Shown one piece after another: positions 3-52,036 of a stretch of 64,000 nt of DNA. Each line of letters opens with the position of its first letter. The stretch's first letter is position 1. The position numbers and the translations under genes were made by a program. Where the stretch lies: assembly GCA_029933125.1 (NCBI GenBank), contig JAOZOU010000006.1, positions 124,001 to 188,000 on the forward strand, read 5' to 3'. The DNA comes from a bacterium (GTDB lineage: Bacteria; Arandabacterota; Arandabacteria; Arandabacterales; Arandabacteraceae). The notes beneath the pieces were generated by a model. The model saw nothing but the letters and a program-made list of their open reading frames with translations. It had not been told where the DNA came from and did not search any database.

Positions 3-512
3 ATTCTTCCTCAAGGGCTAGAGCTTTCACGCCGAATTCGCATTGGAATTAGATACGAATCCCAAGGCGCTGATCTTCACCATCTTGCGATTGCGAGATA
101 TGAGAATGGCAAGGTGGAGCCTCTTGAGTCTTTTGTTGATGCGGAGCAAAGCAAAATATATGCATATACGACTTGCCTCGGAACATTTGGGCTCATAAGG
201 GATGAAAGCATTTCAAGTGATGAATACGACGATTCGATTATAAGAGCCATCTCGAGCAGTCCCAATCCCTTCCTTAACTCAAGCAAGATAAGTTTCGAGG
301 TTACCTCGATTGTCGAACTCGATGTCGCTATTGTTACAATTGATGGCAGACATGTGGTGACTCTCTATCATGGTGAGGCTTATCCCGGGCTTTACAGCTT
401 TGATTGGGATGGCAGAAATGAGGCAGGCAGGAAGGTTGCAAGTGGCGCCTATTTCTGCAGAATCAAAGGTAGCAACGTAAGCCGAGATCATAAGATCATT
501 TTGCTGAGATGA
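3..512 (+). CDS. Secreted/surface protein, C-terminal fragment with FlgD-like/Por-type sorting tail (5' partial)
   Basis: Frame is open from the left edge; C-terminus SSPNPFLNSSKISFEV...GLYSFDWDGRNEAGRKVASGAYFCRIKG...KIILLR is the classic FlgD Ig-like/T9SS-type tail. Confidence 0.8.
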   Translation: MLPQGLELSRRIRIGIRYESQGADLHHLAIARYENGKVEPLESFVDAEQSKIYAYTTCLGTFGLIRDESISSDEYDDSIIRAISSSPNPFLNSSKISFEVTSIVELDVAIVTIDGRHVVTLYHGEAYPGLYSFDWDGRNEAGRKVASGAYFCRIKGSNVSRDHKIILLR

Positions 513-39391: not shown

Positions 39392-41269
39392 ATGGATTCA
39401 GGAATTCGCGACGGGATTTCACCTTTTAGGGCTGCAGTTGTGCTTGGAGTAATACCTGGTATCTACATTGGTGTATTGATTGGCCTCATGGTAGCAGGGC
39501 TGAACTTCCTCTGGGAGTCGCCAAGGGATGTGATCGTAGCAATCTTCTGGTTCGGCGTTATCTTTGGTGCAATAGGGGCAGTTGCCAGCCTGATTGTCGC
39601 TCTCCTTGCTGCGCTTCTTAAGAAATCACTGCGATGGACAGTTTTCTCCGTGTCTACTGTTGTCGCAAGCGTCTTCATCTTCATAGAAGGGTATGGGAGG
39701 TGCTATGGCTGCCATCAATTTCTCGACTGGCGCGCCCCGCATCTTATCTATACGCCAGGTAGAAGCATTCTGCTGACAGCTGCCCTGGCTCTTGGATGTA
39801 TTGGTGTGGGTGCAGGTATTGGTGGGATCGTCTATGTTCTTTGGGGAGCGTGGAGGAGACGCTTCGTAAGGAGAATTGCCTACTTCGTACTCATTGCTGT
39901 GATCGCCATAGCAATTTCATTAAGCTATCTTTCAACTCCAGGCAGAGGAGAGCACCCTTCGCAGGCGAGTCTTGGGTTAAAGCCTTCCGGTGGCCTCGAT
40001 CATGTTATCGTAATTGTGGACGATGCTGCTACCTGGACGGTTTTCGATTACCTTCTCAAGAATGGGAGTGTACCAGCCCTTCGCAAGATTGTTGAAAATG
40101 GCTCAACTGGCTATCTTAAGACCTTTAGGCCAACGCATTCGCCTCAGATATGGACAACTATGGCTACAGGCAGATCCCCGACTCGTCATGCCATAACCGG
40201 CTTTATCAATTATGCCTTTCCCGGAATGCGTTACGGAATTGCCAACTTCGAGATTCCCTTCGAATGGATGCTCGAGTATCTGTGCCTTAAACTTCATGCC
40301 TTAGGGATTGGCGGAGCAAGAACACTTGGCCCTGAGCGGCGAAGGGTGAAGGCTCTCTGGAATATTGCAAGCGATTTGAAACTTGGTGTAGGTGTCGTCA
40401 ACTGGCATAACACATTGCCAGCTGAGAAGGTAGAGGGCTTCATGTTATCAAACTACTTCTACCTTTCGCTTAGTAAACGGGCAAATGAGTGCGTCTATCC
40501 AGCCGACTTGATCCCCGAAGTGGAGGACATGGTCGCAGCAGCGCATGATTCTTCATTCGACTGGGTCACAGGCTTTAGCAAAGACGAGCTTCCAGGGGGT
40601 AGCGCCGGTGAGCGTGCCGATCTTGTGAGAAAGGTTAGCAACGGCGATTTCACAGCGAATCTTGTTTCAATGCATCTTCATGAGAGATTCAAGCCAGCTC
40701 TTATGATGATGGGACTTAAGGGCCTCGATACAATCGGCCACACAACCTACTGGGAGTACGCCCTACTTCACTATCCTCAAGAATATAAGCTCACTCCCTA
40801 TCTTAGAAAGTTTACTGATGAAGAGCTCATCAAGCACCTCGGTAAAGCGATTGACAACCTCTACATCTTGCACGACAGATTCTATAGGCAGTGGCTCGAC
40901 ATGCTTGGGGGAAACGACGCCATCATCATCGTTTCGGATCACGGCTTTGAGATGAACGGTAATCAGCATGAGTTTGGTCCTCCAGGAGTCATAATGCTTT
41001 ATGGCAAGCCCTTCAAGAAGGGCTATCGAATCGAGAATGCCTCCGTATTCGACATCGCTCCGACTGTGCTCTATCTTTTGGGTCTAGCTGTGGGGGAGGA
41101 TATGGAGGGCAAGATACTTACTGAAGCCCTTGATCCGCAATGGCTTTCGAGCCATCCCATCCGCACAATCGATACATATGAAACTGTTAGGCGAAAACAC
41201 AAGAAAATACCGCGCAAGGTAAGTGAAGAAACCCTCAAGCGCTTAAAGGCCGTAGGATATATCAGATAG
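39392..41269 (+). CDS. Membrane-anchored alkaline-phosphatase-superfamily phosphodiesterase
   Basis: N-terminal TM helices; VIVIVDDAATWTVFDYLLKNGSVPAL...IWTTMATGRSPTRHAITGF...AIIIVSDHGFEMNGNQHEFGPPGVIMLYGK. Confidence 0.85.
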   Translation: MDSGIRDGISPFRAAVVLGVIPGIYIGVLIGLMVAGLNFLWESPRDVIVAIFWFGVIFGAIGAVASLIVALLAALLKKSLRWTVFSVSTVVASVFIFIEGYGRCYGCHQFLDWRAPHLIYTPGRSILLTAALALGCIGVGAGIGGIVYVLWGAWRRRFVRRIAYFVLIAVIAIAISLSYLSTPGRGEHPSQASLGLKPSGGLDHVIVIVDDAATWTVFDYLLKNGSVPALRKIVENGSTGYLKTFRPTHSPQIWTTMATGRSPTRHAITGFINYAFPGMRYGIANFEIPFEWMLEYLCLKLHALGIGGARTLGPERRRVKALWNIASDLKLGVGVVNWHNTLPAEKVEGFMLSNYFYLSLSKRANECVYPADLIPEVEDMVAAAHDSSFDWVTGFSKDELPGGSAGERADLVRKVSNGDFTANLVSMHLHERFKPALMMMGLKGLDTIGHTTYWEYALLHYPQEYKLTPYLRKFTDEELIKHLGKAIDNLYILHDRFYRQWLDMLGGNDAIIIVSDHGFEMNGNQHEFGPPGVIMLYGKPFKKGYRIENASVFDIAPTVLYLLGLAVGEDMEGKILTEALDPQWLSSHPIRTIDTYETVRRKHKKIPRKVSEETLKRLKAVGYIR

Positions 41270-41341: not shown

Positions 41342-42698
41342 TTACTCTGGGACAAGCTCAATGCCATATTGCCTGAGGCGTTTCCAGAGAGTCACCCGGC
41401 TAATACCCAGCAGCTTTGCAGCCTTACCGCGCTTTCCTTTGGATTTGCGAAGTGCATCGATTATTCGCTGCCTTTCACCACCAGCTCCTTCAAGCTCGTA
41501 ACCCGGCCGAACGCATTCTGAATCAAACAATCTTGGTGGTAGATGTTGGGGTTCGATAAGTCCCTTGGGACAGACAACGAGGGCATACTCGAGAACATTT
41601 ATCAATTCCCGCACGTTTCCAGGTCACTGGTATCTCAACATAGCTTCCGGGGCTGATTCGGAAACGCCGTCAATAGGTTTTTCAGTTCTCACGCGAAGCC
41701 TGCGAATGAAGTGGTCAACGAGGAGAGGTATATCTTCGCTTCGCTTTCGCAGAGGAGGAAAGTGAATGGGTATGACATTGAGACGATAGTAAAGATCTTC
41801 ACGGAAGCTCCCATGGCGAATCATCTTGGTGAGATTTCGATGAGTGGCAGCAATGATACGCACATCAATCTTGATGGGTTTGTGATCGCCGACACGTTCA
41901 ATTTCTTTTTCCTGAAGTACTCTCAGGAGCTTCACCTGAGTGGAAAGTGGAATATCGCCAATCTCATCGAGAAAGATATCACCCTTGTTGGCAGCCTCAA
42001 AGCGTCCCTTGCGATCCCGGCTTGCCCCTGTGAAAGCTCCCTTGACATGCCCAAAAAGTTCACTCTCAAGTAAGGATTCGCTTAGAGCAGCACAGCTAAC
42101 CTTGACAAAAGGGCCTCTTCTGCGCCGACCGAGTTTGTGGATGGCGTCTGCAACGAGCTCCTTACCGCTTCCGCTCTCGCCATAGATGATTATTGGGGCA
42201 TCGGATTGAGCTGCATTTGATATGAGTTCGTAGACTTCCTGCATTGCCTTGCTTTTGCCCACTATTCCGTGAAAGCCCTCATCGCTCGAGAGCATCTGCT
42301 TGAGCTCCGCAATCGTTCTTTCCTTATCCACAAGGTCTGTAAGGTCGGTTAGTGTTTCGACTCCTCCAATCATCTTGCCCTTGCTATCCCGCAAAACAAC
42401 TGCATTCTTGAGCACATGGATGACCCTCCCGTCGGCGGCGCAATTCGCATCGCTTCCTCATCACCTAGCCTAAATTGAAGAGCTCACATTTTTTTCTCAA
42501 ACCGCCCGCATCGTACGCAAGGCAGAGGTTACAGCCAAGGACAGTGCAGGGCTTTCCAATGAGCTCATCATGCTTGGAGCTCGTAAGCTCGCCAACCGCT
42601 CTGTTAGCCGAAACGATGGGTTTGCCAATAGCAGATGTCCTTGGAATCCTTTCAGACAATCTAAAGAATCGCAAAGCGGTTCTCTCACTCTCAGGCAA
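41342..42698 (-). pseudogene. PAS-containing sigma-54-dependent activator, disrupted
   Basis: GESGSGKELVADAIH, ESELFGHVKGAFTGA; in-frame TGA (41624-41626) replaces W of WPGNVREL; HTH tail follows; N-terminal PAS part (VSANRAVGELTSSKHDELIGKPC) lies in another frame. Confidence 0.85.
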
Positions 42699-43622: not shown

Positions 43623-46391
43623 TTAGTCAGATTTCACGCTTAGGGCACCACGATCTATGATCTTGAGTAATCTCTGCTTGGGGAGGATGTTGACAACCAT
43701 TTGCTTTGATTCCCCAGGTCGAAGTTCGATTTCTGTTCGGGATGGGTCGAAGACATAATCAGGTGAAGGGTCTTTGGTTTTTACAACTATTCTCCACTTG
43801 CCTGGCCTTAGGTGGTCAAATGCAACCTCGTGATCATTTCCAACAGGCTCAACAAAGGTCTCATCACCATTTGAGATCTCCATCCAAATGTGGCTAAAAT
43901 CGACTTCGTTTGGCATCAGGGTAGTGCTTAACTGAGACAGAGTCTCATGGGTTGGTGCCCGAGATGTGGTTTCGGCGTGGAACCCAAATCGTGCAGTGAT
44001 GCTGGATCCTCGGACGATCCCTATGGTGATCTTACTCGCTTGGCCGCCTTTGATTGAAAGGACAATGGGTGTTGGTTTGATGGTTGTCATTCCCGTGCCA
44101 AGTGACCGAGGGTCGAGATACAAGGAGTGATTCCCCGGCTTAAGCCCTTGAATCGTGAAGTTGCCATCGCTGTCTGTCACTGCCATATCACCACTGGCGA
44201 TCACAACAACATTGGGAACCGGCGGGTGTCCCGGGATGTCAGCACGGTAGACCTTGCCCTCGAGTGATCCCACGGATTTCTTTCTCGATGAAGGGATGCC
44301 AAGGGCAATTTTGTATTGCAGGAGTAAAGATACCTTTTTCTCCCCATGCCTCCGTGGCTGCTCCAGGTTACCCCGGAGCTCGAAGGTATGTCCTTCTCTT
44401 GGCTTCCACGAGAGGCTGCCGAGAAGATTGTCATAAACCATGTTTGACACTGATAACTGCTTGTACCGGAGAAAGCGGATGCGGAAAACTACACTTCTGG
44501 TCAGATACCATGTAGCTGAGATTCCCATGTTTGTGTATCGCCGTGCTTCAGGTGAATACTGTGTGGTACCCGTATGTCCGTAGAAAGCATAAGTTTGGTT
44601 TGGAAAAGGGTGCCACGTGAGACTGCCTGAGTAGCGCTCAACTTGTTTGACAGTCTTGGCAGCATCATTTGCTAGCTCGCCTCTCTCGGCCGATCCACTG
44701 AAACTGAGGAGGCCTCCTGTATGAGCAGCGGAGAGCCTTATCACCCGTTCGGTGAAATCTGTTGCTGACCTTGCCACATTATCCCATTTAGAGAATCTCC
44801 GAAAGTCCAGGGTGAATCTATGGCCTCCACGCATCGTCCACAGAATGCCTGTCGCCACCTGGCGCTCCCTAATCGCGTCAGCCTTTGAAATGTCATTATC
44901 AAGATTGCGAGCATAGTTGCGGAAATTCGTTCTCCATGAAAAGTGCGTGCTAAGTGGTAGCCTTATTGCTGCAAGCAGATATTCAGTATCATGGTAGTAT
45001 CCCTTGAATTCAGGTTCAGCCCGAATCCATTCAAAGGAGTAGTTTCCATCCTTGCGAATTTTCCCGTGCAGGGTAACATTCTGGGCTGTCTGAGATCTTG
45101 TGAATGTCTTACCTTCTGGGCTCACTGCGACTTCAAAGGAGAGATCTCCTCCAGCCACAGCCAAACTTCCTCCGAGACTGTAAAGGTAATGGCGAGATGA
45201 ATCCACTGAAGCGTTCTTCTTTGAGAGGAAACTTGTTCCTAGGGATACTCTTCGCCCCAGTCCGAAACACAAGCTCATCCCTGCTTCTGTAACAGGTCTC
45301 GGAAGCCAGCGCTTTTGGGCAAAGAAGGCCTTGGCACTAAAGGTCCTCTCCTGGTAAGTGACCTGTGCTCCACGGGCATAATTGTACCTTTCCAGCAAAG
45401 ATGAAAGTGAATAGCCCTGGTCTCCAAGACGAAGGGCGATTGGGCCTCGTTTGTAGTCGATATAGATCCTATCCCGACTGGTGTAGCGCCCAACATCTTC
45501 AATGTCAGGAAGCTTCAGCACGAATCCCAGATGACTATCAGCCTCACTTAGGCTACCCCGCCCTGATAGTTCGATCTGGTATGCGCTCCCTTCTCGATCT
45601 GTTGTGGCAGTGAGTTTAAGATAAGCAGGAATTCTCACATATGGATCAACACGCCTGCTTACTCTCGGGATGACCTCGATGCGGACCGCCTTGCTGAGGC
45701 TCCTTGGCGTGCCTTTGGCTGTCTTGGCGGTTGCTGTTATTCTTATGATACTCTCACTTCTCGTCCTTATGTTCTCGGAGCTTTCAAAGAGCAATTGGCA
45801 CCGCCTTGTCTCGCCTGGTTTGAGGAGGAGATTTCGTGGTTTGCTCACATATCGCATGATCTTGTCCGTTGAGGCTTCAAGCTTCACATGAAGATCGGCA
45901 TTACCGCGATTTTTAAGATTCAGGCCAAGAGCGCATATCTCACCGGCAAGAACGATGTGTGGTATGTCACCCACGCTGAGGGCTAGATCTGCCACTTCGG
46001 AAACTTTGATAAGGATAGTGTCAGCACCTGCTAGGGAGCGATCGCTGAGATTCATCAGATTGTACACCAGTGAATAGGTTCCAGGACCGCATGTTGCTGG
46101 AATTTTGAGAGCCACGAGCCTAACCAGACTCCCATTTGGATCAAGATCGAGTTGGGAGCGATTTGCTGATACTACTTTCCAATTGTGTGGAAGCTGGAAA
46201 GTTTCGACTAATGCCTGGGGTGTGCTTGAATTGTTGACAATCACCAATTTAACGGTCAGGATCTCGCCGGGCTGACTTGACGCATGAGGCGACGGTGATG
46301 TCAGAATGTTTATAGGCTGTGGGTTGGCGCTCGCCCCTGATGTCGAGAAGGCGATGAGGACCAAGATCGCTATCAGCAGCTTGATCATCAC
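43623..46391 (-). CDS. Usher-like large outer-membrane protein (NEW3/Ig-like N-term, predicted beta-barrel, carboxypeptidase-regulatory-like C-term)
   Basis: N-term VKLVIVNNSSTPQALVETFQLPHNWKVVS; long amphipathic strand-rich middle; VGSLEGKVYRADIPGHPPVPNVVVIASGDMAVTDSDGNFTIQGLKPGNHSLYLDPRSLGTGM. Confidence 0.55.
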   Translation of the reverse strand: MMIKLLIAILVLIAFSTSGASANPQPINILTSPSPHASSQPGEILTVKLVIVNNSSTPQALVETFQLPHNWKVVSANRSQLDLDPNGSLVRLVALKIPATCGPGTYSLVYNLMNLSDRSLAGADTILIKVSEVADLALSVGDIPHIVLAGEICALGLNLKNRGNADLHVKLEASTDKIMRYVSKPRNLLLKPGETRRCQLLFESSENIRTRSESIIRITATAKTAKGTPRSLSKAVRIEVIPRVSRRVDPYVRIPAYLKLTATTDREGSAYQIELSGRGSLSEADSHLGFVLKLPDIEDVGRYTSRDRIYIDYKRGPIALRLGDQGYSLSSLLERYNYARGAQVTYQERTFSAKAFFAQKRWLPRPVTEAGMSLCFGLGRRVSLGTSFLSKKNASVDSSRHYLYSLGGSLAVAGGDLSFEVAVSPEGKTFTRSQTAQNVTLHGKIRKDGNYSFEWIRAEPEFKGYYHDTEYLLAAIRLPLSTHFSWRTNFRNYARNLDNDISKADAIRERQVATGILWTMRGGHRFTLDFRRFSKWDNVARSATDFTERVIRLSAAHTGGLLSFSGSAERGELANDAAKTVKQVERYSGSLTWHPFPNQTYAFYGHTGTTQYSPEARRYTNMGISATWYLTRSVVFRIRFLRYKQLSVSNMVYDNLLGSLSWKPREGHTFELRGNLEQPRRHGEKKVSLLLQYKIALGIPSSRKKSVGSLEGKVYRADIPGHPPVPNVVVIASGDMAVTDSDGNFTIQGLKPGNHSLYLDPRSLGTGMTTIKPTPIVLSIKGGQASKITIGIVRGSSITARFGFHAETTSRAPTHETLSQLSTTLMPNEVDFSHIWMEISNGDETFVEPVGNDHEVAFDHLRPGKWRIVVKTKDPSPDYVFDPSRTEIELRPGESKQMVVNILPKQRLLKIIDRGALSVKSD

Positions 46392-47191
46392 TCAATTACC
46401 AGACTGTACTGACCGCCATAGGCACAGTTGGCGCCGTCATCGAGCACAACGAGGGCCTCATACGAACCCTTGCCCACGTTGCTGAGATTGAATATGTGTC
46501 TTACTGAACAATTTGGCAGAATCCGCTTTGCCTGACTCCTTAGCCTCGAGATGAGATTGGCTTTGGCATCGTATATCTCAAGCCACGCATCGGGTCGAAC
46601 CACTTTTGTGCCGGTATTGGCTACGTCTATTTGGAGGACCATGCCACCTGGCGTTTCTTTGAGAGTCTTGCCGATGAACTTGAGTGCAGGTTTCGCAGCC
46701 TTGCCGATGTTAGTGATCACCTGGATGCCATAGCGTGTTCTCGTGGTCACTCCCATGCTGACACCAGTGGCAGCATCAAAGAGCGTATCATGTCTGGAAT
46801 CAGGAACAGGTTCGACCATTATGATGCTCCAGTATGTGCCAGAGAGGGATGTATCATTGGGGACGGTTCCCTGATAGAAGAGCGAGAAACGCTCATGTGC
46901 CGGGATGGTGAGATATTCGTTACTGAGAGAGATCCAGGCTGCATTTGAGCGGCTATTGCTACCGGGTGGGTCATATCGGGAGATGCCATTTGCGGCAAAG
47001 ACATAGTCAGTCTGGTAGATTCGAACCCCTGCATCTTTATCGGCTGTGTTCTTAAGCGTGATTGTTCCACTAAAAGTATCTCCAGGAGCAAGATCTTGCT
47101 CGTGTGTCAGACTTCCCACAACAATCACCTTACCCATGCAAAAATTTGCAAGGCTGAAGATCAAGAGAACCGCAATAATTGAAGCCTTCAA
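46388..47191 (-). CDS. Secreted Ig-fold chaperone-like protein (PapD/DUF916-like)
   Basis: Signal peptide; LAPGDTFSGTITLKNTADKDAGVRIYQTDYVF...ERFSLFYQGTVPNDTSLSGTYWSIIMVEPVP; ATGA overlap with 43623-46391. Confidence 0.55.
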   Translation of the reverse strand: MKASIIAVLLIFSLANFCMGKVIVVGSLTHEQDLAPGDTFSGTITLKNTADKDAGVRIYQTDYVFAANGISRYDPPGSNSRSNAAWISLSNEYLTIPAHERFSLFYQGTVPNDTSLSGTYWSIIMVEPVPDSRHDTLFDAATGVSMGVTTRTRYGIQVITNIGKAAKPALKFIGKTLKETPGGMVLQIDVANTGTKVVRPDAWLEIYDAKANLISRLRSQAKRILPNCSVRHIFNLSNVGKGSYEALVVLDDGANCAYGGQYSLVIE

Positions 47192-47203
47192 CTCACTCCC
47201 TCC

Positions 47204-47662
47204 TCATTGATCGACAATCGTGAAAGTTAGGGTTGTGGAATAGGTACCAGGAGTGATGTCTATTGACGTACCGCTGAGATGGTATTGAACATCGACTCCT
47301 GTGCGATCAAGGCTGCCAGTGAAAAGCTCGGTGTCGGTTGGGGAGACAACGAGGTAAGAGGTTCCGCCAGATATCGTGCCACTCCCGGTCCCATCAGATG
47401 CACGTTTGAGGTAGAGCGTGAAGTCCCCGCTCCAATTGGTGTCAGACCTTCGCACGTTAACTTGATAATTACCAGAAGCTGCGACATCTATCGTTGTTGC
47501 ACTAGTGCTACTGTAATAATCAGTCTGGAGGTTGCTCCCTGCACCTGAGACGAGATCTGAGGCATCGATGGTTTCAGTCCAGCCGCCGACGGCTGCAATG
47601 GTTGCTGCAAGCAGGCTGTGTGCAATGCTAATGAAGGCAGCTGCAAGGAAGGTGGTTCTCAT
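47204..47662 (-). CDS. Secreted beta-sandwich subunit-like protein (putative structural subunit)
   Basis: Signal peptide; NYQVNVRRSDTNWSGDFTLYLKRASDGTGSGTISGG...ITPGTYSTTLTFTIVDQ. Confidence 0.5.
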   Translation of the reverse strand: MRTTFLAAAFISIAHSLLAATIAAVGGWTETIDASDLVSGAGSNLQTDYYSSTSATTIDVAASGNYQVNVRRSDTNWSGDFTLYLKRASDGTGSGTISGGTSYLVVSPTDTELFTGSLDRTGVDVQYHLSGTSIDITPGTYSTTLTFTIVDQ

Positions 47663-47715
47663 CCTTGATCCCCATTTCTCAGACGACTTGCTTCAAATAG
47701 GCTCTAGATCCCCAT

Positions 47716-48240
47716 TTAGCTGTCTGTTAGCGTCAAGGTGACAGTTCTCGAATCCGAAGCAACTACCCCCGCCGAGACCGTCGCTGAAAACGTGTAAGTG
47801 ATAGTCAATCCACTTTCGGCAAGCGTGGCAATCCCTGTTACAAGGTCAGCAGCCGTTGTTGAAAGAGTGACACTTCCAGCACTTGACGCTCCAGTTGGAG
47901 CCGTCAGATTCACCTTAAGCGTGGTATTCGCGGGCATTGCTGCATCGATAGAACCTGTGATCTTCTTGCTAGATTCGTTAGTGGTGATCGAATATGAGGT
48001 GGAGTTGTCAGTTGCATCATCAGGATCCGATCCCGCAGTTGCTGTGCTAATTACGAGATTGCCCGGATTTCCGCTCACGGAGATTTCATTGATTGCCTGG
48101 ACTTCGAATGTGACAGTCTGCGTTGCTGTGTTACCGGCATTGGCAACCTCAAACAAAACAAGCAGTATCACGCCTGCCAGCATAAACGTGCGAACCATGT
48201 CGTTACCCCCCTTGGCAAAATCCATTACTACGGCTTCCAA
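47716..48240 (-). CDS. Secreted beta-sandwich subunit-like protein (putative structural subunit)
   Basis: MVRTFMLAGVILLVLFEVANA signal peptide; TQTVTFEVQAINEISVSGNPGNLVIST...ATLAESGLTITYTFSATVSAGVVASDSRTVTLTLTDS. Confidence 0.5.
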   Translation of the reverse strand: MEAVVMDFAKGGNDMVRTFMLAGVILLVLFEVANAGNTATQTVTFEVQAINEISVSGNPGNLVISTATAGSDPDDATDNSTSYSITTNESSKKITGSIDAAMPANTTLKVNLTAPTGASSAGSVTLSTTAADLVTGIATLAESGLTITYTFSATVSAGVVASDSRTVTLTLTDS

Positions 48241-48451: not shown

Positions 48452-48664
48452 CTACATGATACCTTCCCACACCTGCTTGCCACTTCTCTCTTGGGGTGGT
48501 TTTGCTTGCTGAGAAACAGATGCTGCTTCAGGAGTGGTTTGCTGAGGGATATCCCTTTTAGCTTGTCGGTTGCTACCTCTGAAGAGCGATGTCACAAAGA
48601 GGGCAATAACCACTATGAGCAATGCAACAATCAAGTAACCCGTTGTTTGATGCTTGTCCATCAA
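48452..48664 (-). CDS. Small single-TM protein
   Basis: MMDKHQTTGYLIVALLIVVIALFVTSLFRGSNRQ; overlaps the start region of the pseudopilin operon's last gene. Confidence 0.45.
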   Translation of the reverse strand: MMDKHQTTGYLIVALLIVVIALFVTSLFRGSNRQAKRDIPQQTTPEAASVSQQAKPPQERSGKQVWEGIM

Positions 48665-50292
48665 ACTTCCCTCCAGGAGATTGGATGTGGGACTGGCTGG
48701 TCAACTCTAAAGACGGGTGTCAGTGGATAATAGGGTGGAGTAAAGCCCCGTCTATCATATCTGAAATCTCGGCCAAAGCCTGTCATTCCCCACCAGGGAG
48801 AGAAGGTACCAAAAGGACCGTAGTAGCGCTGAACAACGCCACCTCTTAGGTGGACCTGGCCGCTATAGTGACGATATCTGAAATTATCAACAGTGAAGCA
48901 GCCATCTTCGCCTATTGCCATTATGAATGCATCGAGCAGCAGCTCATCAGGCGCTGAGGTGGAAATGCGAACGTCTCCATCAGATGAATAGATGCCAAGT
49001 ACACTTTCAGAGGCCTCATAGGCCTCATAGGTGATGTCGCGGTCGATGACGATGTCACCTTCAGCGGTTATAGTCACCTGAGTTTCGTCATCAAGTGCTG
49101 GTGGTGGGGATCCGTCAACTCTTGCAGGGCCGCCGAGATGGTTTATGTCGCCTGTTGTGTATATCATTCCTCTTGGCAAACCCGTGTAAATGGTAGAATC
49201 AGAGCCGGCATAAACCTTTGTCACGGAATTCACTTTATCGAGCACTATGCGTTTTGTTATGCCGTTTTGATCTGTCATCTCATAGTTTTGAAAGCCATTT
49301 TCATCTATGTAGAGACGCATGTTGTCTGCATCTCCGACTACGTAAATCCCACCCGTGACTGAAGAGCCATCGTTCGGAAGATAAATACCTGCTGGTATGG
49401 GCGAGGGATCGTATGGATCCAGCCCGAGAGCTGCCTTTCTCTCAGAGAGCGTAACAGGAGTTGTATCACCTGGTGCATAACCTAAGGCGGCTCTTTCCTG
49501 ACTGAAGGAGTTGGATGGCAGCGGTATCTCATCAACGCCGCGCATAAAGCCCCCGTAGAAGTTTGGAACATCCCTGTTACCGTTGCGGTCGGCGTCCAAT
49601 TCAATAGGCCAGCCTCTGTTGTAATAGACTGCCTTCTGAGGGACGCATGTAACAAGATCCTCAAAAGTTGGAAAGTAGGCAAATCTTAATTTACCATTGC
49701 TATGCACTCGGCCATCGAAATATCCGCTTGTATGGAACCAGATCTCGTTGCCGTCAGGCGTGTAGTGGATATCGGTGAATATCAGGAAGTCTGCAAAAGT
49801 TCCTCTCGACGCACTTAGACGCAAGGTTCCCTCTGATATGACCTGCTTTCGGCTTCCTTTGAAAGAAATCCCTGACGCAACTGAAGCGTAATGGAAGTTG
49901 AAGGTTTGGCTTGTGGATTCGAGTGAACTATCCGCAAACTCAAATGTTGTCTGAACTTGGAACCTGCCGTTTGGATCGTTAAAGCTTAAGCCTTCCTCGG
50001 GAAAGAAGCTTGCCACATCAGTTATAATTGGCCCTACGCCGGGCCAGCAGTTCTTGAGACTTTCCATCTTGGCTTGGCTAAAGGCTGCCATCTGCTGCTT
50101 CGCGACCTCTATACCGGCATCAGCCATATAGAGCGCCTGTGTGGCGAATTTCTGATTCTGAGTGATTCCCTTCTCAGTTATTGAAAGCGTGGTTATTGCT
50201 AGAGACATTGCGGCCATCATGCCGGCTACAATGATGGCTATCACAAGTGCCACACCAGCTTCACTGTTGTCACTTATCTTCATCACAGACAC
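48661..50292 (-). CDS. PilX-like minor pilin/pseudopilin-associated protein
   Basis: EAGVALVIAIIVAGMMAAMSLAITTLSITEKGITQNQKFATQALYMADAGIEVAKQQM. Confidence 0.8.
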   Translation of the reverse strand: MSVMKISDNSEAGVALVIAIIVAGMMAAMSLAITTLSITEKGITQNQKFATQALYMADAGIEVAKQQMAAFSQAKMESLKNCWPGVGPIITDVASFFPEEGLSFNDPNGRFQVQTTFEFADSSLESTSQTFNFHYASVASGISFKGSRKQVISEGTLRLSASRGTFADFLIFTDIHYTPDGNEIWFHTSGYFDGRVHSNGKLRFAYFPTFEDLVTCVPQKAVYYNRGWPIELDADRNGNRDVPNFYGGFMRGVDEIPLPSNSFSQERAALGYAPGDTTPVTLSERKAALGLDPYDPSPIPAGIYLPNDGSSVTGGIYVVGDADNMRLYIDENGFQNYEMTDQNGITKRIVLDKVNSVTKVYAGSDSTIYTGLPRGMIYTTGDINHLGGPARVDGSPPPALDDETQVTITAEGDIVIDRDITYEAYEASESVLGIYSSDGDVRISTSAPDELLLDAFIMAIGEDGCFTVDNFRYRHYSGQVHLRGGVVQRYYGPFGTFSPWWGMTGFGRDFRYDRRGFTPPYYPLTPVFRVDQPVPHPISWREV

Positions 50293-51152
50293 CTCGGTCT
50301 CACAGTGGATGTGAGTCTGGTCCTATGCAGGCGTGATTGTTCACGCGAAGCGGTCTCAATTGTTACGATGAGTTTCCTTATGAGAGAAGGATCCGATGGC
50401 ATAGCATCGAGGGTTCCATCCTGAAGCCCGTAGTCAAGATCGAATGTCGAAACATATTCAGCAATGACCCTTGGCTCTTGTGTTCCTTCCTGACGCATCA
50501 GCCTTGGACATGTTGAATCCTCGAGGTCAACATAGTAGGTAATGAGGTTGACCTTGAAAACTCTGCTTCCGGGTGCATAGCCTCCTGGTGGCCAGGGTCT
50601 GTGACCTCCAGGCTGATTGAAGGGGGAGCTTGGGTTGTGTTGTAGCATCCTGGCCGAAAGCTGCACATGCGTTACCTGAAAAAGGTTGGCGAATGAGCCG
50701 TTGGTTATGACAACGAGATCGCCTTCGCTGAAACCATCAGCACTTTCGACCTTTATCTCTGAACTTGCATTTGGCATTTGTTGGCGGATTGTCGTCTCCA
50801 CATCTCCAAACTTCCCAAGAATTCTGAAACTCTCATGTTGCCCATTGTTTTCCAGAGGTGCGATAGGATAGAGAATGAGTGAGTCACCATCTTCCTGTGA
50901 TGTTACCACTGGTATGGAGATACCCGTTCCAGCCATTCTTGCCTCTGAAACAATGAAATCAATGGCGGCACGAGCATTCTGGCGAGATTCAAGTACATGG
51001 TCTGTGATGTCACTGGCGTTTCTCGCTCGACCCAGGATGCCGAGTACAACCCCCACTGCTGCAACGAACATCACGCTGGCAACGAGGAGCTCAATCAGGG
51101 TAAATGCCCTTTCGCATTCCCTCGAAAACAATTTCCTGCCATTTGCTTTCAT
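50283..51152 (-). CDS. PilW-like prepilin-type N-methylation protein
   Basis: RAFTLIELLVASVMFVAAVGVVLGILG. Confidence 0.85.
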   Translation of the reverse strand: MKANGRKLFSRECERAFTLIELLVASVMFVAAVGVVLGILGRARNASDITDHVLESRQNARAAIDFIVSEARMAGTGISIPVVTSQEDGDSLILYPIAPLENNGQHESFRILGKFGDVETTIRQQMPNASSEIKVESADGFSEGDLVVITNGSFANLFQVTHVQLSARMLQHNPSSPFNQPGGHRPWPPGGYAPGSRVFKVNLITYYVDLEDSTCPRLMRQEGTQEPRVIAEYVSTFDLDYGLQDGTLDAMPSDPSLIRKLIVTIETASREQSRLHRTRLTSTVRPRCL

Positions 51153-51157
51153 CTTTC

Positions 51158-51544
51158 CTACCTTCCAGCACTGGCCAGTACGGTTGATATGTCAACTTTG
51201 ATTGAAGGTTCGACTTGTGACGTAACTGTAACGGTGATAAACTTGCAGCCAACCATAGGCTGATCCTCGGTTACCTCCCAGGTACGCAGGTATACGCCAT
51301 CTATTGGATTAAGGCTGTCAGCATGGGTATAGCCAGGCTCGAGCTCAGGTGCATCGTATGCAGTCATATGAAAATCCTCGAGCTTCTGTTTGCAGAGCTC
51401 AACAGCCTCGGTTGCCGTTCCCGACTTGTTCACATCTTCCATGGAAAGGGGGAAGACAATTGCTAGTCCCAGAATGCCTATGGCTATGACAGTTAGCGCC
51501 ACTACTATCTCTATGACTGTAAAACCTTCATCAGCTCTTGCCAT
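51158..51544 (-). CDS. PilV-like prepilin
   Basis: GFTVIEIVVALTVIAIGILGLAIVFPLSM. Confidence 0.85.
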   Translation of the reverse strand: MARADEGFTVIEIVVALTVIAIGILGLAIVFPLSMEDVNKSGTATEAVELCKQKLEDFHMTAYDAPELEPGYTHADSLNPIDGVYLRTWEVTEDQPMVGCKFITVTVTSQVEPSIKVDISTVLASAGR

Positions 51545-51547
51545 AGC

Positions 51548-52036
51548 TCAATCCACCTTACAAAGCCCACTGGGTCTAATCTCAATCGTTCTTGATCGAT
51601 CTGCGTTGCTAATAGTGATGTGTCCACCTGTTGTCCCGCTTTTGAGAGTCCCTTTGGGAAGAAAGACGACAACACCCGGTGGGTCAAGATCGATTTCTGA
51701 GAATTCATAATCGTCGCCAAGTTCCCTGGTTGCTAAAATTTCTTCCCCCGTATCTATCTCACCGTCTGCGCGATCCTCAGGTTGCCCGTTACCGTCATCT
51801 ATGAAAATGACATACTCATTGAGATCGGGATCAAAGATGATAGAATGTGCTTGAGAGGTTGCAATTGCCTTCTGGCGCGCCAGCCACAGATCCGTAGCGA
51901 GGCGCAGTGCACTTGACTTAAGTCCACTTGATTGGCTAAATGATTTGAAAGCCGGGATGCTTGTAGCAAGGAGAATGCCCACAATAGCAACAATTGCTAG
52001 CAGTTCAATTAGAGTGTAACCTGTTTGCCTCTGCAT
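51548..52036 (-). CDS. GspH/FimT pseudopilin
   Basis: GYTLIELLAIVAIVGILLATSIPAFKSF...LRLATDLWLARQKAIA...EIRPSGLCKVD. Confidence 0.88.
   Translation of the reverse strand: MQRQTGYTLIELLAIVAIVGILLATSIPAFKSFSQSSGLKSSALRLATDLWLARQKAIATSQAHSIIFDPDLNEYVIFIDDGNGQPEDRADGEIDTGEEILATRELGDDYEFSEIDLDPPGVVVFLPKGTLKSGTTGGHITISNADRSRTIEIRPSGLCKVD

Follow-up and report, generated by a model that had tools for sequence, protein, structure and literature searches.

Chaperone-usher pili are known chiefly from Proteobacteria, and PapD, one of their chaperones, has R8 and K112 as its basic anchor pair. Classical chaperones carry such a pair (Arg20/Lys139 in Caf1M), those of the archaic and alternative classes share a conserved Arg89 in strand F of D1, and the archaic class extends to Cyanobacteria and Deinococcus-Thermus (PMC4654587). 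Then there are the WxLIP proteins. A paper that never uses the word "chaperone" predicts that they fill a gap in WxL with a hairpin strand and so complete the WxL sandwich (PMC10599100). The two fields are connected by the 267-amino-acid (aa) chaperone-like protein of the locus described here, a cassette of four genes on the minus strand at positions 43623-48240 of the 64,000 nucleotides analysed (the window; contig JAOZOU010000006.1, positions 124,001 to 188,000, from a bacterium of the Arandabacteraceae). I propose that the cassette encodes machinery of chaperone-usher-like type for assembling a thin fibre of protein or a polymer at the surface, that its chaperone belongs to the WxLIP/PapD superfamily and that its platform in the outer membrane lies outside the Pfam Usher family. 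I put the probability of this at about two in three.

A check of the open reading frames (ORFs) of the window finds all four that the earlier note on this DNA had placed here, closely packed and in the same direction. The first two gaps measure 53 and 12 bp and the last two genes overlap; this spacing, together with the shared strand, makes a single operon likely. The parts of the cassette are as follows.

47716..48198 (ORF open to 48240), minus strand: putative subunit 1, 160 aa from the better-supported ATG; signal sequence, beta-rich; family F1
47204..47662, minus strand: putative subunit 2, 152 aa; signal sequence, beta-rich; family F2
46388..47191, minus strand: periplasmic chaperone-like protein, 267 aa; two beta-sandwich domains, WxLIP/PapD superfamily
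43623..46391, minus strand: candidate usher-like outer-membrane protein, 922 aa, from domain matches and a model
46047..46313, minus strand: first NEW3-type immunoglobulin (Ig) domain of the 922-aa protein (about residues 27-115); NPCBM_assoc and Ig_VWA7 matches, modelled strands
45669..46022, minus strand: its second Ig-type domain (about residues 124-241); Cep192_D3 match, modelled strands
44307..45533, minus strand: its strand-rich middle (residues 287-695), candidate transmembrane barrel; 24 modelled strands, the first with a predicted local distance difference test score (pLDDT) below 50
43980..44270, minus strand: its C-terminal domain 1 (about residues 708-804), prealbumin/CarboxypepD_reg type; domain match, model and hidden Markov model (HMM)
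43677..43895, minus strand: its C-terminal domain 2 (about residues 833-905), a beta-sandwich; domain scan and model

Two start sites need comment. The first ORF (47716-48240) does encode the 174 aa reported before, from a TTG at 48240, which lacks a GGGGGG-type site. An ATG at 48198 with GGGGGG in front of it is the more probable start and gives a predicted product of 160 aa that begins MVRTFMLAGVILLVLFEVANAG. The junction between the genes of the 267-aa and 922-aa proteins reads GTGATGATC, that is, GTGATG, so the overlap is not the ATGA once supposed: it is GTGA (4 bases) if the second gene starts with GTG and TGATG (1 base) if it starts with ATG. Sec-type signals are apparent, by eye, at all four N-termini. 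A scan for promoters and terminators did no better than chance.

The cassette is conserved as a unit, and the order of its genes recurs. The genomes compared were centred on relatives of the window and are not a random sample. A genome of the same family (G003, L018) has all four genes in this order, as does one of the same genus (G001, L017 and L025), where the large gene is divided between two contigs. A third genome (G006, L013) preserves, on a short contig, the chaperone, the large protein and, in front of them, the end of an ORF like subunit 2. A scan of genome contigs found only three sister metagenome-assembled genomes. In G007 two ORFs that resemble subunits stand in a row with a chaperone and a protein of 886 aa, and a Thermus-like genome (G026) has the order 294 aa, chaperone of 280 aa, 162 aa, 1070 aa. 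Relatives of the chaperone, sought with a profile built from eight sequences, occur in 54 of 386 genomes, from many families. In most of the 40 neighbourhoods retrieved, a gene for a protein of 770-1070 aa follows the chaperone and genes for small secreted proteins precede it. An HMM of the C-terminal domains of the large protein, seeded from the window, L018, L013 and L058, matches, in 21 of 42 loci, the ORF that lies downstream of the chaperone on its strand; seed loci make up three of the 21, and just two further matches occur elsewhere in those loci. Pfam supplies five more partners (L021, L063, L070, L090, L094), bringing the count to 26 of 42; some of the loci that lack a partner lie at contig ends or are of the tandem/secretin type taken up below. 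Each of the 20 partner proteins scanned for it has prealbumin-type domains (SdrD_B, CarboxypepD_reg or SpaA) toward its C-terminus. The co-occurrence that the earlier note had wished to see checked is thus real, and the system is not confined to one candidate lineage.

Further copies are on plasmids of Deinococcus sp. NW-56 (C3K08_RS15405 to RS18840), Deinococcus sp. D7000 and D. psychrotolerans. All three have four genes, every one labelled "hypothetical protein", and match the HMMs for the chaperone (E <= 2e-58) and the large protein (E <= 4e-43); tblastn of the plasmids with the window's 922-aa protein gave no match. D. deserti VCD115 has a three-gene form, also on a plasmid (DEIDE_RS15110-15120), annotated as hypothetical, FimB/Mfa2 and carboxypeptidase regulatory-like. 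These are the same kind of cassette as the window's, but with subunits of other sizes, and as their carriers can be cultured, the function of the cassette is open to experiment. The label "FimB/Mfa2 family fimbrial subunit" is attached to the D. deserti chaperone homologue (NC_012529.1, 88292-89062; L127:5953-6723) and probably stems from a borderline match to Mfa2 (21.7 bits against a cut-off of 21.2).

What sort of protein is the chaperone? Single cassette proteins searched against Pfam, NCBIfam and PDB sequences give weak or empty results, and single-protein Pfam matches of the chaperones to WxLIP families lie mostly under the cut-off. A profile of 26 family members linked to a barrel protein does better: in PDB it finds EfmWxLIP1 of Enterococcus faecium (9i25, 9i1y; E 8e-14) over positions 34-266, both domains, and the next chaperone is EcpB (E 0.006). 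By hhalign the family aligns with a PapD-type set, consisting of FimC and four chaperones adjoining canonical ushers, with a probability of 99.4 across 211 columns; the reversed control gives 0.2. An AlphaFold2 model from four sequences has two beta-sandwiches (pLDDT 74), for which Foldseek lists WxLIP first and then CsuC (in CsuC-CsuA/B), YadV, CfaA, FimC and Caf1M, interspersed with other Ig proteins, at query-normalised template-modelling (TM) scores of 0.3-0.4, perhaps because the domains are oriented differently. The resemblance of the N-terminus to PapD and DUF916, remarked on earlier, is therefore borne out by profile, alignment and fold. To judge by these comparisons, the 267-aa family, WxLIP and PapD fall in one superfamily, where the chaperone sits between PapD and WxLIP. 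It has neither known anchor: the equivalent of K112 is Q157 (K in 4 of 26 family members), and the Arg89 column, as set by the EcpB alignment, holds S122 (Arg in 0 of 26). The family signature is W86 (24/26), R153 in the presumed G1 strand (19/26), N192-x-G194, P226 and G242-x-Y244.

That WxLIP and not PapD is the closest match, in sequence and in fold, invites another view, namely that the cassette is the diderm counterpart of a WxL cluster. The WxLIP-like protein would then hold small WxL-like proteins in a fixed complex for surface adhesion or at the cell wall, and the large protein would be an outer-membrane anchor rather than a polymerising usher. WxL clusters too combine small and large WxL proteins with WxLIP (PMC10599100). 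I think this view unlikely. The WxL domain (PF13731) was found in none of 192 sample genomes, G000 included, by a search that was positive in the Lactococcus control. The 267-aa protein ends in GGQYSLVIE, with no C-terminal membrane helix, and a large barrel-like partner is foreign to the WxL cluster as portrayed in the abstract of PMC10599100.

The small proteins would be the subunits of the fibre, and searches of Pfam and PDB with them found no meaningful relative. Subunit 1 belongs to family F1 (members in L017, L018, L057, L058 and L061), which stands apart by hhalign from the others. The same method ties F2 to subunits that distant genomes encode next to this chaperone (F2-F4 69-86%, F2-F7 85%, F4-F7 95%). 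The C-terminal strands are RTVTLTLTDS in subunit 1 and YSTTLTFTIVDQ in subunit 2. A strand of the form [YFLWV]T[LIVMA] within 6 residues of the C-terminus is present in 27 of 31 subunits and in 78 of 515 ORFs generally (15%), where the subunits were chosen by gene position and not by motif, relatives were counted separately and beta-rich proteins were favoured. Such an excess is expected if the last strand of a subunit sits at its extreme C-terminus.

The 922-aa protein is the candidate usher. In an AlphaFold2 model from four sequences, an Ig pair (residues 27-241) is followed by 24 strands (287-695) and two C-terminal sandwiches, and Foldseek places FimD structures at the top (E down to 7e-11), with PapC also high. 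By hhalign the C-terminal domains match the C-terminal region of canonical ushers with a probability of 97-98 (reversed control, 0-0.1). The NEW3-like Ig domains, the carboxypeptidase-regulatory-like domain and the further beta domain described previously are all there. The domain thought to resemble a plug is not placed as one: both the CarboxypepD_reg-like domain (residues 722-759) and the last beta domain (about 833-905) follow the strand-rich middle on its C-terminal side, and the low-confidence model has no domain-sized insertion within the run of strands.

Several observations weigh against the chaperone-usher-like reading. The model is weak (pLDDT 62, predicted TM score 0.36); the best Foldseek TM is about 0.2, so the match to FimD is local, without global superposition; and LptD appears further down the same list. 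The middle region by itself reaches an hhalign probability of just 24-45 with canonical ushers. Prealbumin and NEW3 domains are widespread in unrelated surface proteins. By hhalign, the subunits could not be linked to SCPU or FimA, in a test that is underpowered, since its positive control, SCPU against FimA, itself scored 8-14. Counting amphipathic strands discriminated too little to be usable. Given the poor global model, the weak match of the barrel alone and the commonness of the prealbumin fold, the modelled usher-like barrel is rated no more than likely. The "barrel-like" middle of the earlier note is modelled with 24 strands, in a protein whose leading Foldseek matches are FimD and PapC, at low confidence.

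Might the protein simply be a true member of the PF00577 family, strongly diverged, and the cassette an ordinary chaperone-usher operon? The order of the Foldseek list, the C-terminal domains and the PapD type of the chaperone could all be read so. But Usher matches none of 29 partner proteins scanned with Pfam, the 922-aa protein included, and PF00577 was not found anywhere in G000, as the earlier note had anticipated in seeing no canonical usher signature. The N-terminal module of the partners is an Ig pair (NEW3-like), Cu_amine_oxidN1, T2SS-T3SS_pil_N or TPR, with no usher N-terminal domain reported, and neither a model without a plug insertion nor a chaperone that lacks Arg89 and mostly lacks the K112 equivalent fits. 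I regard this as quite improbable. Less probable still is an outer-membrane complex that handles carbohydrates or other ligands at the surface, its likeness to chaperone-usher systems due to generic beta-sandwich and barrel folds. NEW3, CarboxypepD_reg and SdrD_B are indeed generic domains, but the chaperone is matched specifically and over its whole length, and the order of subunits, chaperone and large protein recurs across lineages.

If the cassette is a chaperone-usher-like system, I infer that its products would donate strands, polymerise and be secreted in the following manner. The two small proteins would reach the periplasm through Sec as incomplete beta-sandwiches, and the chaperone would give them a beta strand from its G1 region (about residues 144-162). 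The complex would dock at the 922-aa protein, whose N-terminal Ig pair would be periplasmic and whose barrel would lie in the outer membrane, with two C-terminal prealbumin-type domains. At the pore, the N-terminal strand of a subunit would displace that of the chaperone, and the growing fibre would exit. The strand complementation predicted for WxLIP (PMC10599100) gives a mechanistic ground for expecting strand donation here. The earlier note's divergent or undescribed fibre-assembly or secretion system is supported, conditionally where fibre assembly is concerned.

The platform may not always be the same. WxLIP-like proteins of 540-580 aa, each with two chaperone units in tandem in one chain, are encoded at L023:682-5336 (minus strand), L024:204-3965 (minus strand), L076 and L079, the last exceeding the WxLIP_PGBD cut-off. 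Those of L023 and L024 adjoin STN/Secretin genes (Secretin E 1e-37 and 6e-41), which suggests a chaperone-secretin variant, with a secretin in place of the barrel. T2SS-T3SS_pil_N forms the N-terminus of the large proteins in L063, L064, L070, L073 and L094, so the periplasmic module of usher-like proteins seems, from sequence, to have been swapped between lineages. It is possible, though I hold it tentatively, that there exists a separate and widespread class of diderm export systems, in which a WxLIP-type chaperone serves one or another of several exchangeable platforms in the outer membrane, be it a barrel bearing Ig, pilus-N or other modules or, elsewhere, a secretin, and that WxL/WxLIP and chaperone-usher pili share a donor-strand ancestor.

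Of the same 386 genomes, 54 have the WxLIP-like chaperone and 8 have a Pfam Usher match, which exceeds the cut-off in 7; SCPU (PF05229) is found in 5 of 289 sample genomes and not in G000. A whole branch of fibre assembly may therefore be escaping annotation, the genes of the cassette being mostly labelled "hypothetical" in databases. A search of open-licence papers found no description of the cassette, and one may exist outside these.

As to the neighbours, a gene on the plus strand (39392-41269) encodes a protein of 625 aa that has hydrophobic segments at its N-terminus and matches the type I phosphodiesterase/nucleotide pyrophosphatase domain (E 6e-12); it is adjoined by a pair of sigma-54 activator-like ORFs (41342-42415, minus strand). 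Directly upstream of the cassette, at 48661-52036 on the same strand, is a type IV pilus-like minor pilin cluster (GspH/PilV/N_methyl), which includes a 543-aa DUF4900/PilX-like protein whose homologue precedes the cassette in G001 too. The notion that the cassette is part of this cluster was rejected; no pilin cluster stands beside it in G003.

Like the cassette, the pilin cluster encodes surface fibre components, but these are N_methyl/GspH prepilins of a separate system. Gram-positive WxL/WxLIP clusters (DUF916-DUF3324) contain WxLIP, the solved protein closest to the chaperone in both sequence and fold, and also encode small beta-rich partners; the cassette differs from them in having no WxL domain, no C-terminal transmembrane helix and an extra large protein of outer-membrane type. 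With the archaic (sigma, Csu) and alternative (alpha, CFA/ECP) chaperone-usher systems it shares the order subunit, chaperone, outer-membrane protein, the chaperone fold (CsuC and CfaA) and two C-terminal beta-sandwich domains on the platform, a fold common elsewhere. It departs from them in having no PF00577 match and no Arg89, in a model without a plug, in subunits that gave no SCPU match in an underpowered comparison, and in its N-terminal module. Most likely, then, the cassette works like a chaperone-usher pathway, outside the Pfam Usher family.

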